Source: an uncultured archaeon (lineage in GTDB: Archaea > Nanobdellota > Nanobdellia > Pacearchaeales > GW2011-AR1). Taken from it: a stretch of 45,584 nucleotides of DNA. The notes below the pieces were generated by a model. It did no database searches. It was not told where the DNA came from and saw nothing but the letters and a program-made list of their open reading frames with translations. The translations under genes and the position numbers were made by a program. How positions within the stretch are numbered: position 1 is the stretch's first letter; each line of letters opens with the position of its first letter. Shown in pieces: positions 33,844 through 45,584 of the stretch. The stretch spans positions 1 to 45,584 of the forward strand of contig CABMGO010000002.1 in the NCBI GenBank assembly GCA_902385655.1, given 5' to 3'.

Positions 33844-35745
33844 ATGTCTGATAAAAAAGAGTATAATGCAGAGAATATTAAGGTTCTAGAAGGTCTTGAA
33901 GGAGTTAGAAAAAGGCCGGCGATGTATATTGGAAGTACGGGCAAAGAGGGTTTACATCATCTTGTTTATGAAATTGTTGACAATTCTGTTGACGAAGCTA
34001 TGGCTGGTGTTTGTGATACAATTACTGTGACCTTGAATGCTGATGGTTCTGTTTCTGTTGAAGATAATGGAAGAGGTATGCCTGTTGACAAGCATCCAGT
34101 TTACAAGGTATCTGCTATGGAAGTTATTGTTACAAAGTTGCACGCTGGAGGAAAGTTCGATAAGGGTTCCTATGCAGTTTCTGGAGGTTTACACGGAGTA
34201 GGTATTTCGGTAGTAGCTGCTCTATCCAAAAAGATGAGAGTTGAGGTAAAGAGAGAAGGAAAAATCTATATGCAGGAGTATAAAATTGGAACTCCTCAAA
34301 AAGAAGTAGAAGTTATTGGGAAGTACGATGGAAAAGAAACAGGAACTAAAGTTACTTTCATGCCTGATGATACTATTTTTTCTACAACAACTTTCGATTT
34401 TAATTATCTGTCTACTAGATTTAGAGAAATTGCTTTTTTGAATGCTGGATTGAAAATTATTTTTATTGATGCTAGAGAAAAAGAAAAGAAAGAGGAATTT
34501 CATTTTGCTGGAGGAATCTTAGAATTCGTAAAATGGTTGAATAGGACAAAACAATCACTGCATTCTAAACCTGTTTATTTTAAAAAAGAAGCTGAAGGTT
34601 TAGGAATTGAAGTTGCCATTCAGTATAACGATTCTTATAACGATAATATTCAAAGTTTTGTAAACACGATTAACACAATTGAAGGTGGAACTCACGTTGC
34701 TGGTTTTAAGACTGCTTTAACAAGAGTTATCAATGATTATGCTGAAAAGAAAGGCATTATTAAGAAAGGTGAAAAATTAGAAGGAGATGATGTAAGAGAG
34801 GGTTTGACTGCAGTTATTTCTACAAAAGTTAAGGAACCTCAATTTGAAGGTCAGACAAAAACGAAATTAGGTAATTCTGAAATTAAAGGAATTATGGATT
34901 CTGCGACGACGGCTGCACTTGGAGAATTCTTTGAAGAGAATCCGACTGTTGCAAATACTATTGCTAAAAAAGCAAGCGAAGCATTAAGAGCTAGGGAAGC
35001 TGCAAAGAAAGCTAAAGAACTTGTTAGAAGAAAGAATGCTCTTGGTGGCGGGGGACTTCCAGGTAAATTGGCTGATTGTTCTTCGAAGAAAGCTGAAGAA
35101 ACTGAATTGTATATTGTAGAGGGTCAGTCTGCTGGTGGTACTGCTAAAGGAGCAAGAGATAGAGAATGTCAGGCAATTCTGCCATTGAGAGGTAAAATCT
35201 TGAATGTTGAGAAATCAAATCCTGCTAAGGCACTTGCTTCTGAAGAAATTGCAAACCTAATGACTGCAATTGGAACTGGTGTTGGTGATGGTTTCAAAAT
35301 GGAAGAGTTGAGATATGGAAAAATTATTATTATGACTGATGCGGACGTTGATGGTGCGCACATTAAGACTTTACTTTTGACGTTGTTTTACAGATATACT
35401 CCTCATTTGATTGAAGCAGGACATGTTTTCGTTGCTGTTCCTCCACTTTTCAAATTGAGAAAAGGACAGAAAGATGTTTATGTTTATAATGAAGAAGAAT
35501 TGAAGAAGGCATTGAAGGATACTTCTGGAAAACCTGAGGTAAGTCGTTTTAAGGGTCTGGGAGAAATGAATGATGAACAACTTTGGGATACAACTATGAA
35601 TCCTAAGACTAGAATTTTGAAACAAGTTTCTATTGAGGATGCAGTTGAAGCTGATGAAACCCTTTCTGTTTTAATGGGTGATGCAGTCGAACCAAGAAGA
35701 AAATTCATTGAAGAAAATGCGAAGATGGCGGAGGTTGATTTGTAA
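33844..35745 (+). CDS. gyrB: DNA gyrase subunit B
   Basis: 633 residues, bacterial-type GyrB. The GHKL ATPase has GLEGVRKRPAMYIGST, EIVDNSVDEA, EDNGRGMPV and GGLHGVGISVV. A transducer domain follows, then TOPRIM with VEGQSAGGTAKGARDR, LPLRGKILNVEKSN and TDADVDGAHIKTLLL, and the C-terminal RFKGLGEMN. With GyrA it forms A2B2 and introduces negative supercoils using ATP. Gyrase in archaea is generally taken to be of bacterial origin. It is followed 1 bp later by a small membrane-protein gene and then the rest of the operon. Confidence 0.96.
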   Translation: MSDKKEYNAENIKVLEGLEGVRKRPAMYIGSTGKEGLHHLVYEIVDNSVDEAMAGVCDTITVTLNADGSVSVEDNGRGMPVDKHPVYKVSAMEVIVTKLHAGGKFDKGSYAVSGGLHGVGISVVAALSKKMRVEVKREGKIYMQEYKIGTPQKEVEVIGKYDGKETGTKVTFMPDDTIFSTTTFDFNYLSTRFREIAFLNAGLKIIFIDAREKEKKEEFHFAGGILEFVKWLNRTKQSLHSKPVYFKKEAEGLGIEVAIQYNDSYNDNIQSFVNTINTIEGGTHVAGFKTALTRVINDYAEKKGIIKKGEKLEGDDVREGLTAVISTKVKEPQFEGQTKTKLGNSEIKGIMDSATTAALGEFFEENPTVANTIAKKASEALRAREAAKKAKELVRRKNALGGGGLPGKLADCSSKKAEETELYIVEGQSAGGTAKGARDRECQAILPLRGKILNVEKSNPAKALASEEIANLMTAIGTGVGDGFKMEELRYGKIIIMTDADVDGAHIKTLLLTLFYRYTPHLIEAGHVFVAVPPLFKLRKGQKDVYVYNEEELKKALKDTSGKPEVSRFKGLGEMNDEQLWDTTMNPKTRILKQVSIEDAVEADETLSVLMGDAVEPRRKFIEENAKMAEVDL

Positions 35746-36967: not shown

Positions 36968-39481
36968 ATGGCAGACGAAAAAGACGAAAAGAAGAAAGTT
37001 GAAGCAGGTATGACAAAAGAAGAGCTTGCTGCAAGAAGAGAAGATTTCAAGAAAAATGTTGATGCTAGGGAGCTTGTGAATGCTGAAATTTCTAACGAAA
37101 TGAGAACTGCCTTTATCAATTATGCAATGTCCGTTATCATGGATAGAGCACTTCCAGCTGCTGAAGATGGTTTGAAACCCGTTCACAGAAGAATTTTATG
37201 GGCAATGCATGAGTCTGGATTACAACATAACAAACCAACAAGAAAATCCGCTAAGATCGTGGGAGAGACAATGGGTAATTACCACCCTCATGGCGACGCT
37301 GCAATTTATGAAACTTTAGTTAGAATGGCTCAAGATTTCTCATTAAGATATCCTCTTGTAAAAGGACAGGGTAACTTCGGTAGTATGGATGGAGATCCTG
37401 CTGCGGCTATGAGATATACTGAAGCTAAGATGTCTAAGATTTCTGAACAATTAATGGTTGACATTGAAAAAAATACTGTTGAGATGATGCCTAACTTTGA
37501 TAATTCTTTACAAGAACCTAAGCTTGTTCCTGCAAAATTGCCTAATTTATTACTTAATGGTGCTTCAGGTATTGCAGTAGGTATGGCAACTAATATGCCT
37601 CCTCACAATTTGAATGATGTTTGTGACGCAACTTTGGCTTATATTGATAATAATGAAATAACTATTGAAGAATTGATCAAGATAATAAGGGCTCCTGATT
37701 TCCCAACTGGCGGTTATATCTCTGGACAAATAAAACAAATGTATATTGAAGGCAAGGGAAGACTTGTTTTGAAAGGTAGAACAAAAATTGAAGATGGAAA
37801 TAAACCTTCTATTATAATTACCGAAATACCTTATCAGGTTAACAAAGCTACTCTTGTTGAGCAAATTGCTGAATTGGTTAAAGAAAAGAAGTTACCTGAC
37901 GTTACAGATATCCGAGATGAATCTGCGAAAGGAAAAGTAAGAGTTGTTGTCGAATTAAAGAGGGGAACTGAAGCAAGTTTTACTTTGAATAGACTTTTGA
38001 AATTTACAAATTTGCAAACTACTTTTGATGCTAATATGCTTGCTCTTGTCGATGGTCAACCTAGACAGATGGGTCTTAAACACATGTTAGAGGTTTATGT
38101 TAACCATAGAAGAAAAATTGTTAGGAAGGCAACCGAATTTGATTTGGACAAAGCTGACAAGAGAATACATATTGTTGAAGGTTTATTAGTTGCTCAGAAA
38201 AATATTGATGCTGTTGTCAAGTTAATTAGAGCTTCTAAAGGCAAGACTGAAGCTGCTGAAGAATTGAAAGAAAAATACAAACTTTCTGAAAAACAAGTTG
38301 AAGCTATTTTGGAAATGAAGTTACATCAACTTACCTCTCTTGAGCATGATAAGCTAGTTGGTGAAGAAAATGAATTAAAAGAATTGATTGAGAGATTCAA
38401 GAAGATATTGGCTGATGAAAAAGAAATTTTGAAGATTATTAAGAAAGATCTTAATGAGTTGAAGAAAGATTATGGCGATGAGAGAAAGACAGTTGTTGTT
38501 TCAAATATCAATGAGGAATTTGAAGAAAAAGATCTTGTAGACAAGAAAGAAGTTGTTGTTACAATTACTGATAAGGGTTATGTTAAGAGAATGGATTTGA
38601 AACAATACAAGGAACAGAATCGTGGTGGAAAAGGAGTTATTGGTACTGAATTAGCTACTGGCGATTTTGTAAAAGATTTGTTGATGTGTTCTACTCATGA
38701 TTATTTACTTCTTTTCACAAATAAAGGAAAGTTGCATTGGTTGAAAGCGTATGAAGTTCCGGAGATTCAGAAATATGGTAAGGGAAAAGCATTAGTGAAT
38801 ATGCTCGAATTGAAAGATGAGGTTGTTACTTCAGTTATTTCTGTGAAGGAATTTAAGGATTTCTTGATGATGTTTACAAAAGAAGGAACTGTGAAGAAGA
38901 TTTCTCTTGAAGAATTTTCTAATCCTAGAAAGGGTGGAATTAAAGCAATTGATTTGGAAGGAAAGACAGATTTACTCGTTGCTGTTAAACCTATAAAAGA
39001 ACATCAAGAAGTATTGCTTGTTTCAAAGGATGGCCAGGCCTGCAGATTTAATTCGGATGATGTAAGACCGACTGGAAGAAATGCTTACGGAGTTATTGGA
39101 ATGACTTTAGAAAACAAAGATGAAGTTGTTTCTGCTGAAGTTTTACCAATTGAAAATAAGGAGAAGTTCTCTATTTTAACAATCTCTAAGAAAGGTTATG
39201 GTAAGAGAAGCGAGATTGAAGATTACAGATTAACTTCTAGAGGTGGAAAGGGAGTTATCAATTTGGCTGTTTCAGACAAGACTGGAGAAATAATAACGTC
39301 TCAATCTGTTGTTGAAGAAGATACAATAATTGTTTCTACAACTAAGGGAATTGTTATTAGAACACCAGTTACAGATATAAGAGTAATGGGAAGAGCAACA
39401 CAGGGCGTTAGAATTATCAAACTTGACGACGGAGATTCTGTTGCTGATATGGCTCGAGTCGCCGATGTGGTTGAAGTGTAA
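36968..39481 (+). CDS. gyrA: DNA gyrase subunit A
   Basis: 837 residues. After a charged ~35-residue N-terminal extension, [38 protein letters not shown] and [10 protein letters not shown] (active-site Tyr) mark the breakage-reunion domain. The C-terminal beta-pinwheel contains QNRGGKG, a variant of the GyrA box (QRRGGKG) needed for DNA wrapping and negative supercoiling, and further blade repeats such as SRGGKGVI and [10 protein letters not shown]. It is the last gene of the gyrB-gyrA operon, with an operon gap of about 1.2 kb holding small genes. Confidence 0.96.
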
Positions 39482-40006: not shown

Positions 40007-40044
40007 TTTGAAAGATTTATAAATCTCTTTTGTATTTATTATTC

Positions 40045-42861
40045 ATGAGAAAGGGTGTAATTTTGTGTTTAGTGTTTTTGCTGTCGATTAATTTTGTTTT
40101 TGCTTATGATTTGAATGTTACCAATGTATCTCTGAAGACTAATTATGCTCCTGGGGAAATTATTTCTGGAAGTTTTAATATGAACATTTCTAACGCACCG
40201 GTTAATCTTTATTTTTCATCGAGTTTGGGAACTTTAGGTATTCGTGATTTTCTCAAGGCAAATAACCAGCCTCTTTCGTGTGAAAGTATTAATTGTTCAG
40301 ATGTTATTGTTTTAGCAAATGGTGGTCAAACTTCGAAAACTATTTCTTTAATTTCTGGGGATGAGAAAAAATATGCTTTTGCCGTTACTGACAGTGGAGT
40401 ATCTTTTAATCAGTTAAGTCTTAATTTGTCTTCTAATTTTCCTGAGTCAAGTAATTTGCCTTTGCAAATAGTTGTTGGAAATGGAATGGTTCTGAACTAT
40501 AATCAGTTTTCTGAAAATTATAATCGACAGGTTTCTTATGGATGCTACGATACTAGTTTGTCTTCTTATGAAGAAAATTCTAAAATAGATCAGACAGGAT
40601 ACTGTGAAAAAATGAGTTTGAATCGATCGAATAAATATTTAGTTGGTGCTCAAATTTCTGGAAGTGCTTTGAGAGATTTAAAGGTTCAATTAAAAGATTC
40701 TCAAGGTTTACAAGTTTTAGGCGAATGTACTATTTCAAAAGATGGTTCTGCTTCAACATCTTTTTCAGATAACTCTTCGTGTATAATTCAAACTCCTTCC
40801 GTAAATACTGAAGGCAATTATTATGTTTGCATAAAAGATGTTACTGCAGGAAGCACAGATTCTTCTCTTTTTTATAAAATAAGATCTGAAACTTCTGGAA
40901 CAAACTGTGGTTATTATTCTAATCTTGCTACAAGTTCTATTGATTATGCAATTTATGCTAAACTTCCTACTTATGATGCTGCGCCGTCCTCTGGCTTTTC
41001 TTTTTTTGCTAATTCTTCTAACAGTGGTCTTTCAGGAATAAGTTCTTATGTTTCTCAGAATTATCCTTCGGGATGTGCAAATACTTGCTTAATTCCTTTT
41101 TCAGTTACTGGAGTTTCACAGAGCTTGACTTTTAATAATTTAGACTTGGCATACAGTTCTGTAACTGGTCCGCGAAGTACGAATAAGATTTATGAAACAG
41201 ATTACAGTACTCGTAAATTTAATTTTTCTGGAGATGTTTCTCTGGATGCTTTGAATTGGACTCTTTCAGGATTTGGGAATAAATCATTTACTTTATCTCT
41301 TTTGGGAGATGGGACTAAACAAATTTTGAATTCAACATTTTATGTTTCATTATTGCCGGTTATAGACTATGTTTCTCCTTTAAATCCTCCAGCAGGAATC
41401 CCTGTTTTCTTTTATGTTTATGTCAGAAACTCAGGGAATATTTCTCATTACGAATGGAATTTCGGAGACGGTTCTACAGTTCAGATTACAAATGTTTCTT
41501 ATGTACTTCATAACTATCAAAATCTTTCGAATTATACCTTATCAGTTAAGGCTGGAGAAGGGAATTACAGTGACTCTGGATCTTTTGTGATCAATTCTGT
41601 GAATCCTCGTGATCAGTTGAATCAAACATTTGTTGCTAAGAGAATCAGACTAAACCATGCAAATAATGACTTATTATCTTTACCGAGCTGGTATCAAAAT
41701 GCAGTTTCTAGAAATGTTAACTTGGACTATTATCAGACTGAATTAAATAATCTTGAATCAGAAAGTAGACTTGCAACAACAGATCAAGATTTCCTTAATG
41801 TTGCTTTGAAACTATATAATTTAGTTATGCCTTGGGCTATTGTAATTACGGACAAAAAAGTTGGACCTATGGTAGATAATTATAATTCTTTTTCTCCATC
41901 GATAATTCAAGATATTTTCCCAAGTTCGGTTGGCGATGATCTTTTGGCTTATAGATCTGCTATGTTTGAATGGCAACTTGAAAATACGAACTCAACTATT
42001 ACTCGATCCCTTGTCAGAGTATTTGACGAGAATGAAATTCCTCGTGATGTGCTTTCGGTGTATGAGATAAACATTAAGTCAAATTCTAATGATGAAAGTT
42101 ATTTTGTTATCCAAAAAGATTTTACTACAATAAGTTTTAGTTCGGATACTGCGGTTGTTCCAAAAAAGATTGGAGGCAATACTTATATTACAGTTCCTGC
42201 TCAAGATTCTATTTCTTTGAAATTTTATTTGAATAGTACAGACTATCCTGTAATGTTTATTTCTCCCAAGCTGAGTTTATTGTCTCTTAATAATTCTGTA
42301 GGAGTATGTAACTTTAATCTAAAATGTGAGGCTAATCTTGGAGAAAACTCAAGTAATTGCAGAAGCGACTGTCGTCCAATTGGCTGGATGTGGTTCTGGT
42401 TAGTTATATTATTGCTTGTTGCTTTAGTAATTTATACGATTTTACAGGAGTGGTATAAGAGAAAATATGAAGAATATTTATTTACTGATCGAAATGAGTT
42501 GTATAATCTTCTTGCATTTTTCTCTAATGGAAAATTGAATAAACTTTCTGTTCCGCAAATGAAAGTAATGCTTTCTCAAAAAGGATGGGACGGAGAACAA
42601 ATACAATATGCTTTGTTAAAATCTGAAGGTAAAAATACTGGAATGTTTGAGATTATACCTGTCGATAAGATTGTTTCTCTATTTAGCAAGAAACCAGCGC
42701 AAGTGCCAATGCAAAAACCCATTGCACCAGTTAATCCATATCCAACTCGACCAGGAATGCAAAGACCAGCATTTAACCCATTAAAGAGTCAACGACGAAA
42801 TATTCCTGTGCAAAATAAAACAACTACTCAATTTGGACAACAAAGTAGGCCCAAATATTAA
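40045..42861 (+). CDS. Large secreted/membrane-anchored PKD-domain surface protein
   Basis: 938 residues. There is an N-terminal signal peptide (GVILCLVFLLSINFVFA). Extracellular beta-rich domains with many N-x-S/T sequons follow, including a PKD domain (YEWNFGDGSTVQI...YTLSVKAG, ~residues 475-510), a helical region, and a Cys motif C-x5-C-x3-LGENSSNC-x3-DC just before a membrane helix (MWFWLVILLLVALVIYTIL, ~790-810). The cytoplasmic tail has a helical domain (NLLAFFSNGKLNKLSVPQMK, GWDGEQIQYALLKS) and a Pro/Gln-rich end. TTTATAAAT lies 29 nt before ATG 40045. It is likely an envelope sensor or adhesin. Confidence 0.8.
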   Translation: MRKGVILCLVFLLSINFVFAYDLNVTNVSLKTNYAPGEIISGSFNMNISNAPVNLYFSSSLGTLGIRDFLKANNQPLSCESINCSDVIVLANGGQTSKTISLISGDEKKYAFAVTDSGVSFNQLSLNLSSNFPESSNLPLQIVVGNGMVLNYNQFSENYNRQVSYGCYDTSLSSYEENSKIDQTGYCEKMSLNRSNKYLVGAQISGSALRDLKVQLKDSQGLQVLGECTISKDGSASTSFSDNSSCIIQTPSVNTEGNYYVCIKDVTAGSTDSSLFYKIRSETSGTNCGYYSNLATSSIDYAIYAKLPTYDAAPSSGFSFFANSSNSGLSGISSYVSQNYPSGCANTCLIPFSVTGVSQSLTFNNLDLAYSSVTGPRSTNKIYETDYSTRKFNFSGDVSLDALNWTLSGFGNKSFTLSLLGDGTKQILNSTFYVSLLPVIDYVSPLNPPAGIPVFFYVYVRNSGNISHYEWNFGDGSTVQITNVSYVLHNYQNLSNYTLSVKAGEGNYSDSGSFVINSVNPRDQLNQTFVAKRIRLNHANNDLLSLPSWYQNAVSRNVNLDYYQTELNNLESESRLATTDQDFLNVALKLYNLVMPWAIVITDKKVGPMVDNYNSFSPSIIQDIFPSSVGDDLLAYRSAMFEWQLENTNSTITRSLVRVFDENEIPRDVLSVYEINIKSNSNDESYFVIQKDFTTISFSSDTAVVPKKIGGNTYITVPAQDSISLKFYLNSTDYPVMFISPKLSLLSLNNSVGVCNFNLKCEANLGENSSNCRSDCRPIGWMWFWLVILLLVALVIYTILQEWYKRKYEEYLFTDRNELYNLLAFFSNGKLNKLSVPQMKVMLSQKGWDGEQIQYALLKSEGKNTGMFEIIPVDKIVSLFSKKPAQVPMQKPIAPVNPYPTRPGMQRPAFNPLKSQRRNIPVQNKTTTQFGQQSRPKY

Positions 42862-42886: not shown

Positions 42887-43531
42887 ATGGGAATCAATAT
42901 TTTCAAAGGATGGGGAAAGAAATTTTTCTCTAATTTGTTTAAGACAAAAGAGAATGTAAAACTTGGTTTTTATGGTCCTCCGAATGCTGGAAAAACTAGT
43001 TTAGCGAATAAGATTTGTCAGGATTGGCTTGGCGAAGATATTGGAGTTGTAAGTAAGATTCCCCATGAAACTAGACATGTTCAATTTAAGGAAAAAGTTA
43101 CTCTTGAAAGAAATGGAAAAAAGATTGAGTTTAAGTTGATTGATACTCCTGGAATTGCAACCAAGATTGATTTCGAAGATTTTTTAGGTTTTGGAATGAA
43201 GAAAAAAGAAGCTCAGTCGAGAGCAAAAGAAGCTACACAAGGAATTATTGAATCAATTAAATGGTTAGATGACATGGATGCTGTCGTTGTTGTTTTAGAT
43301 TCTGCAGAAAATCCTTATTCCCAGGTTAACATTACAATTATTGGAAATTTGGCAGCAAGAAAGATTCCTGTTTTGGTTGTTGCTAACAAAATTGATTTAA
43401 AGAAATCAGATATTGAAAAAATTAGAGCTGCTTTTCCAGATTATGAAGTTGTTGGAATTTCTGTAAAGAGTGGTGAAGGAATTGATGATTTTTACGAGCA
43501 TATATTTAAACTTGTAAAAAAGGCGAAGTAA
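42887..43531 (+). CDS. Era-like GTPase (archaeal)
   Basis: 214 residues. G1 GPPNAGKTS, G3 DTPG, and G4 ANKID with a G5-like ISVKSGEG (SAK-like) give a TRAFAC Era-like G domain; there is no KH domain. A ~45-residue charged insertion follows G3 (FEDFLGFGMKKKEAQSRAKE). In many archaea this GTPase sits beside a DUF2073 gene, as here (44163). The biochemical role is unknown. A TATA-like box may overlap the end of the surface-protein gene. Confidence 0.87.
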   Translation: MGINIFKGWGKKFFSNLFKTKENVKLGFYGPPNAGKTSLANKICQDWLGEDIGVVSKIPHETRHVQFKEKVTLERNGKKIEFKLIDTPGIATKIDFEDFLGFGMKKKEAQSRAKEATQGIIESIKWLDDMDAVVVVLDSAENPYSQVNITIIGNLAARKIPVLVVANKIDLKKSDIEKIRAAFPDYEVVGISVKSGEGIDDFYEHIFKLVKKAK

Positions 43532-44162: not shown

Positions 44163-44564
44163 ATGGCAAAGAAAGAGGACAAAAGTTCTAAAGATTTAAC
44201 AATACATTTCATGCCGTATTCTGAAATTGCTAAACTTGATAGTTTGAATAGAATAAAGAAATTAATTGGACTAATTCTTGAGGGAAAAATAATTATTTTA
44301 CAAGGAAGATTGACTGCTGAAGAAGAATCGAAGATGATTGAGACAACAATGACTTTGATTGGAAATATTAGGGGTTTTCAAGGTGTCGAGATTTCTACAC
44401 TTTCCGGAGAAGAAGACCAGAGCATGTTTGATAAAGTAAGGCATAATATTGCAAGAATTTTAGTGGGAGAACAGGATGCAATTACTTTAATTGGACCAGC
44501 TTCAGTTGTTAAAGACATTAAGAGAGATCCTAAGAAGATTGAATTGATGTTGAAGAGAAAATGA
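44163..44564 (+). CDS. DUF2073 family protein
   Basis: 133 residues. DSLNRIKKLIGLILEGKIII, LQGRLTAEEESKMIETTM and FQGVEISTLSG match the archaeal DUF2073 family, found beside Era-like GTPase genes. The C-terminal part VGEQDAITLIGPASVVKDIK is a further conserved block. Its role is unknown, but the pair is probably a functional unit. Its stop overlaps the ATG of the TSP1-containing secreted protein gene. Confidence 0.85.
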   Translation: MAKKEDKSSKDLTIHFMPYSEIAKLDSLNRIKKLIGLILEGKIIILQGRLTAEEESKMIETTMTLIGNIRGFQGVEISTLSGEEDQSMFDKVRHNIARILVGEQDAITLIGPASVVKDIKRDPKKIELMLKRK

Positions 44565-45584
44565 TGAAAAGATTAATTTTACTTTTGTTTTTAGGAATTT
44601 TTTTAATTGGTTTTGGAAGTGCTGGTTGTGATTCTGGTTATAGCATCTGTTCAGGTTATATGAATTTTAATCACGTAAGTAACTGGGATACTAGCAATCC
44701 TCTTGCTTGGCAAACTTGTGCTAATAAGCAAAACAGTGATTGTAGCGGGCTCGGTGGGGTACATTATAGCTGTTATGAGTCAAAGGTTTGCTCTTGGTGT
44801 TGTAATTGTCAAACCCAAATTAATGGTGGTTGGAGCAGCTGGAGCAGCTGGAGTGCATGCTCAGCATCTTGTGGTGGAGGAACTCAATCTCGTACTCGAA
44901 GTTGTAATAATCCTTCTCCTTCTTGTGGCGGGAGTAGTTGTTCTGGCTCAAGTACTGAAAGTCAATCGTGCAACACTCAAGCTTGTTGTACAACTTATTC
45001 TTTTCCTTCATTTAGTACTGTTCAATGGTCTGAATGTAATTCTAGCGGAATGCAAACTAAAACAGTAGTTTGTCCCACAGGTACAAATAGATGTGTAAGT
45101 AGCTGTACTGCTGGGGCTACTAATTCAACTTACCAATCTTGTACTTACTTAGATAAACCTTATTTTGCTTCTCTTTCTCAACCAAATGTAAATATTTCTT
45201 CTGCAGGTTTGGGAGATACTGTTTTTGTAAGATTTCCTGGAGTTAATTTGGTTGCTGGGCAGAATATTACATTTTACATAAATACTTTTAATTCGTCTAA
45301 TGCTGTTTGGTGGAACCCATTTACTTGGTTTGGTGGAAAAAAAGATTGGAATAGCTTTAGTAAAATTTACGGAAATGCAACTGAAAGATTTACGATTACT
45401 TCTTCAGATAAACATAGGATTAATGCTTCAGTAGACGGAGTTTCTTGGAAACAATCTGATAATTTAACTGTTTCAACAAGTAGTCAAGACTCAATGCCAG
45501 TTGCTACAATTTTAAATCCGTTAAGTGCAGGTACTTACAATGTAAATTCGTCAATTGATTTTAATCAAACTTCATCTGATGAAG
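44561..45584 (+). CDS. Secreted protein with thrombospondin type 1 repeat (3' truncated)
   Basis: The frame is open from ATG 44561 (or 44564) to the window end, ~341 residues. A signal peptide (RLILLLFLGIFLIGFGSAG) is followed by a Cys-rich segment, then a canonical TSP1 repeat at residues ~90-140: WSSWSSWSACSASCGGGTQ, RTRSC, and the closing Cys in SQSCNTQACC. A second, degenerate unit begins VQWSECNSSG. Beyond residue ~190 it is beta-rich with many N-x-S/T sequons. TSP1 repeats usually mediate adhesion. The gene overlaps DUF2073 by 4 bp. Confidence 0.85.
   Translation, partial: MMKRLILLLFLGIFLIGFGSAGCDSGYSICSGYMNFNHVSNWDTSNPLAWQTCANKQNSDCSGLGGVHYSCYESKVCSWCCNCQTQINGGWSSWSSWSACSASCGGGTQSRTRSCNNPSPSCGGSSCSGSSTESQSCNTQACCTTYSFPSFSTVQWSECNSSGMQTKTVVCPTGTNRCVSSCTAGATNSTYQSCTYLDKPYFASLSQPNVNISSAGLGDTVFVRFPGVNLVAGQNITFYINTFNSSNAVWWNPFTWFGGKKDWNSFSKIYGNATERFTITSSDKHRINASVDGVSWKQSDNLTVSTSSQDSMPVATILNPLSAGTYNVNSSIDFNQTSSDE

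Follow-up and report, generated by a model that had tools for sequence, protein, structure and literature searches.

A canonical thrombospondin type 1 domain in a predicted secreted protein of a Pacearchaeota archaeon

The window, a stretch of 45,584 nucleotides, is the entire contig C2 of an 836-kb, 8-contig, 85%-complete archaeal genome. The last gene in it encodes a protein with a thrombospondin type 1 (TSP1) domain (Table 1). Upstream of this gene lie an Era-like GTPase, a 145-residue membrane protein and OapB/DUF2073, and the TSP1 gene starts (position 44561) in an ATGA overlap with the OapB stop codon (44562–44564). The TSP1 protein has no match in NCBIfam or PHROGs. It is predicted to be exported, judging by a signal peptide called by eye, and a hydrophobic helix occupies residues 3–13 of the full-length structure model, within the signal peptide region. 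The mean pLDDT of that model is 44.5, with low confidence outside the TSP1 domain. The short module that follows TSP1 is possibly a degenerate TSP1-like repeat (hhalign probability against TSP1 of 40%). A PKD domain, present in the relatives described below, would sit past the contig end.

Table 1. Features of the TSP1 gene and its surroundings in the window
Feature	Position	Strand	Remarks
Era-like GTPase	42887..43531	+	kept as upstream neighbour of OapB
OapB (DUF2073, PF09846)	44163..44564	+	4-nt overlap with TSP1 gene
Gene of the putatively secreted TSP1 protein	44561..45583	+	ORF without stop before contig end; 3' end missing
Putative signal peptide MKRLILLLFLGIFLIGFGSA	44564..44626	+	by eye; start may be first or second ATG
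N-terminal Cys-rich segment	44627..44818	+	no family match
TSP1 domain INGGWSSWSSWSACSASCGGGTQSRTRSCNNPSPSCGGSSCSGSSTESQSCNTQAC	44819..44986	+	six canonical Cys and one extra
Short W-x-x-C-N-S-S-G-x-Q module (W/Cys module)	44987..45142	+	common to TSP1-less relatives
Conserved Pacearchaeota domain (PYFASLSxPN...DLGDT)	45143..45583	+	beta-rich by prediction; PKD expected next
Repeat	45458..45584	+	last 127 bases identical to end of contig C4 (L066, paralog)

The GTPase–OapB pair is conserved in relatives (OapB loci L081–L110), and the usual order in Pacearchaeota relatives is Era-like GTPase, OapB and a small protein that resembles a zinc ribbon by eye. This last gene is the one that most often follows OapB (in 11 of the 22 relatives read), the remaining relatives having a different gene or no called ORF in that place. 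The window departs from this order in that OapB is preceded by the membrane protein and followed by the TSP1 gene. A TSP1 gene follows OapB in none of the 22 relatives and in this genome only, so the coupling of the two genes is physical and local and does not reflect a conserved functional link. Thus, of the earlier proposal that the TSP1 gene is coupled to a DUF2073/Era-like GTPase operon, the 4-nt overlap stands, and a functional tie is unsupported. The same operon adjoins a 943-residue PKD-domain protein (40030–42861) with a signal peptide and a C-terminal membrane helix, which is predicted to be another surface protein. Further upstream, the genes at 33844–35745 and 36968–39481 resemble by eye DNA gyrase subunits B and A, respectively; bacterial-type gyrase occurs in other archaea.

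The TSP1 domain belongs clearly to a known family. The PF00090 profile matches it over its full length (profile positions 1–49 of 49) with an E-value of 7.2e-10 and a score of 39.3 bits, the cut-off being 21.6 bits, and a search of the whole genome with PF00090 recovers one TSP1 copy only (44.0 bits). The second profile named in the earlier note, PF19028 (TSP1_spondin), stays under its threshold (31.9 bits against 41). In a phmmer search of the Protein Data Bank, the top match of the protein is human thrombospondin-1 (149 bits), and the alignment with the third thrombospondin repeat (TSR3) of that protein is free of gaps, with 33 of 56 residues identical (59%). The W-x-x-W-x-x-W motif, the arginine pair and the six-cysteine layout that make up the CWR layers are all present, and the cysteine positions fit a disulphide pairing of 1–5, 2–6 and 3–4. 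A profile built from seven human TSRs scores the domain at 69.0 bits, which none of 40,000 shuffled sequences approaches: the best score is 16.7 bits among 20,000 full shuffles and 27.6 bits among 20,000 shuffles with the cysteines held in place.

The AlphaFold2 model of the domain (pLDDT 79) recovers the TSP1 fold, and Foldseek superimposes it on the TSRs of thrombospondin-1 with TM scores of 0.80–0.82. Of the three strands, DSSP recognises two (residues 21–26 and 46–51), the third being the rippled tryptophan strand. The earlier note had named a predicted structure without the fold and a sub-threshold profile score as findings that would speak against a TSP1 domain; both were looked for, and the fold was recovered and the PF00090 score lies well above its cut-off. 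Its central claim of a canonical TSP1 in a secreted protein of a DPANN archaeon is borne out with regard to the domain, to the predicted signal peptide and to the Pacearchaeota origin of the protein, and the domain can be assigned firmly to PF00090.

Downstream of TSP1, the protein continues as a member of a Pacearchaeota family. When the whole protein is compared with 180 genomes of its family, relatives in genomes G042 and G040 align to it over residues 142–340 and 77–340, respectively, and a paralog in the same genome, located where contig C4 ends, is 47% identical over residues 56–340. These relatives conserve the W/Cys module followed by the PYFASLSxPN...DLGDT domain, and all three share the signal peptide with the window protein. 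Unlike it, none of them carries a canonical TSP1, and the two complete ones, those of G042 and G040, run on into a PKD domain. Because both the paralog and the relatives do without it, the TSP1 domain is best read as a module that an originally archaeal scaffold has gained.

The gene reaches the end of its contig and runs into a repeat of 127 nucleotides or more, which raises the question of whether a foreign TSP1 fragment has been fused to an archaeal contig by misassembly or contamination. The identical 3' stretch is common to the C2 and C4 genes and is where the assembly broke. The missing 3' end was sought on the other contigs, but the contig ends have no more in common than the exit shared with C4; the bin therefore lacks the repeat itself. 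Since the archaeal family sequence continues downstream in the same frame, contamination is disfavoured; moreover, OapB overlaps the gene on its other side, and TSP1 occurs in eight other genomes of the family. We therefore regard a chimera as extremely improbable. The nearest other matching stretch between the two paralogous genes is ~79% alike, and against this background the 127 identical bases suggest that the 3' part has recently been duplicated or homogenised by gene conversion.

The survey of DPANN genomes called for in the earlier note shows that TSP1 is present, though patchy. At E-values up to 0.001, and with the centre genome of each sample included, TSP1 is found in 9 of 181 family genomes (this genome among them) and in 9 of 371 genomes of the phylum sample. 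It is rarer still in the Patescibacteria-type sample (6/380, four of them above the cut-off) and in the Bacillota-type sample (2/392). With the centres left out, the difference between the family (8/180) and the Bacillota-type sample (1/391) gives a Fisher p of 0.0006 for genomes that are phylogenetically non-independent and unequally complete. Among named species, a further scan picked up TSP1 in Portnoybacteria, Yanofskybacteria, Nomurabacteria and Roizmanbacteria as well as in Bacteriovoracaceae, Bdellovibrio, Rickettsiales, Myxococcales and a Bacilli MAG; because it relied on a single peptide pattern, its negatives carry little weight. The view of TSP1 as a mostly eukaryotic module thus needs qualifying, as the domain recurs in CPR, Bdellovibrionota, Myxococcota, Rickettsiales and a Bacilli MAG. 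Bdellovibrionota, Rickettsiales and CPR are groups with predatory or host-associated members.

Annotated phages and plasmids yielded no TSP1. A viral contig from IMG/VR (L031, 525–1058) encodes a small protein with a TSP1 domain (PF00090, 43.6 bits); the N-terminus of this protein resembles by eye the start of a phage tail fibre, and PHROGs gives no match. One CPR genome (G725; L121, L128 and L130) carries five TSP1 copies across three separate proteins. An archaeal C-x-P-x-W-x-C-x-x-W repeat (L073) was considered as a TSP1 homologue and rejected (hhalign probability 1.6%). In the literature searched, coverage of which was incomplete, no report ties TSP1 to DPANN or CPR.

The closest copies of the domain are those of CPR/Patescibacteria and of other Nanoarchaeota. 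In a tree of 58 TSP1 domains (56 columns, the eukaryotic rows being human only), the window copy has CPR and DPANN copies as its nearest neighbours and is 84% identical over 49 columns to that of a CPR genome. Labels for DPANN and CPR are mixed across the tree (11 and 9 changes, respectively), 30 of the 55 forks are open, and the AU test does not reject a single DPANN clade (p-AU 0.13). Of the seven human repeats, six form a branch of their own, in which TSR2 and TSR3 group with the properdin repeats. The proteins that carry these nearest domains differ from the window protein: the CPR copies sit on unrelated scaffolds with Ig-like or PKD domains, and other Pacearchaeota copies sit on unrelated repeat proteins (GHxADEIxVSVxGxEMTLQEAI). 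N-terminal repeats like GHxADEIxVSVxGxEMTLQEAID are seen in several TSP1 proteins of the same genome family (L013, L022, L024, L007, L010 and L012).

The 59% identity to human TSR3 would agree with the archaeon having acquired the domain recently and directly from an animal or another eukaryote, but the identity to CPR and DPANN copies is higher, the human repeats, the only eukaryotic ones in the tree, stand mostly on their own branch, and the GC3 of the TSP1 segment (0.25) equals the local mean (0.25). With its nearest copies in CPR and DPANN and a host-like GC3, such an import is unsupported and in our judgement very unlikely. The tree proposed in the earlier note to detect transfer fits a different route: TSP1 has probably circulated laterally among prokaryotes, by gene swapping between microbes.

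The TSRs of thrombospondin-1 (TSR2 and TSR3, PF00090) and of properdin share with the window domain the W-x-x-W-x-x-W, CSxSCGGG and RxR motifs, the six cysteines and the predicted TSR fold. Unlike them, the archaeal domain is present in a single copy with an extra cysteine, belongs to an archaeal protein family whose complete members carry PKD, and occurs in a genome in which DPY19 and POFUT2 were not found. The sites that animals C-mannosylate and O-fucosylate, to which the earlier note had drawn attention, are indeed present as WSSWSSWSAC and CSASCGGG (the WxxW and CxxSCxxG targets), but the enzymes were not found, although an unrelated enzyme might act on these sites: neither DPY19 (PF10034) nor O-FucT (PF10250; POFUT2) has a match above cut-off in this 85%-complete genome or in 12 other TSP1-bearing genomes. 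A sub-threshold DPY19 hit in this genome was rejected as a C-mannosyltransferase, being the archaeal oligosaccharyltransferase AglB/STT3. Ten N-x-S/T sequons lie downstream of TSP1, so N-glycosylation of the protein seems more likely than animal-type modification of TSP1 itself.

We propose that the native core of this protein consists of a Cys-rich N-terminus, the short W/Cys module, the beta-rich domain and a PKD domain, and that in this lineage a true TSP1, drawn from a pool that is passed between small-genome archaea and bacteria, would have been inserted between the N-terminus and the rest. On the cell surface or in secreted form, TSP1 would act as a disulphide-braced binding module and would contact a glycan or a protein on a partner cell. 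A role in attachment to cells or hosts is plausible by analogy with the behaviour of the eukaryotic domains and from its presence in presumed symbionts and predators. Taken as a whole, this proposal seems to us somewhat more probable than its negation.

Its main competitor holds that TSP1 is a structural spacer or stabiliser in a surface or pilin-like protein and has no binding role in symbiosis. In its favour, TSP1 accompanies PKD domains, Ig-like domains or the N-terminus of a type IV pilin in other proteins, and the majority of relatives manage without it. The strong conservation of the canonical Trp, Cys and G-T-Q residues from phylum to phylum speaks against a mere spacer, yet these positions are needed for folding too. 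We consider the spacer function rather unlikely. A broader reading makes TSP1 a mobile adhesion module with which prokaryotes that live as episymbionts or predators (DPANN, CPR, Bdellovibrionota, Rickettsiales) grip partner cells, and adds that eukaryotic TSP1 may derive from, or share ancestry with, the prokaryotic pool; we think this improbable. Two points of distribution weigh against our own proposal of attachment: the domain is not exclusive to episymbionts, being present also in Myxococcota, in a Bacilli MAG and on a viral contig, nor is it essential to the lifestyle, since 95% of the family genomes lack it.

To our knowledge, the means by which DPANN archaea recognise and hold their partners are largely unknown. 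The attachment reading offers an entry point here, as a structurally understood binding domain on a predicted exported Pacearchaeota protein is a concrete, expressible candidate for binding tests. The domain counts as an animal adhesion module, and its scattered presence in CPR, DPANN and predatory bacteria opens its history to testing as well.
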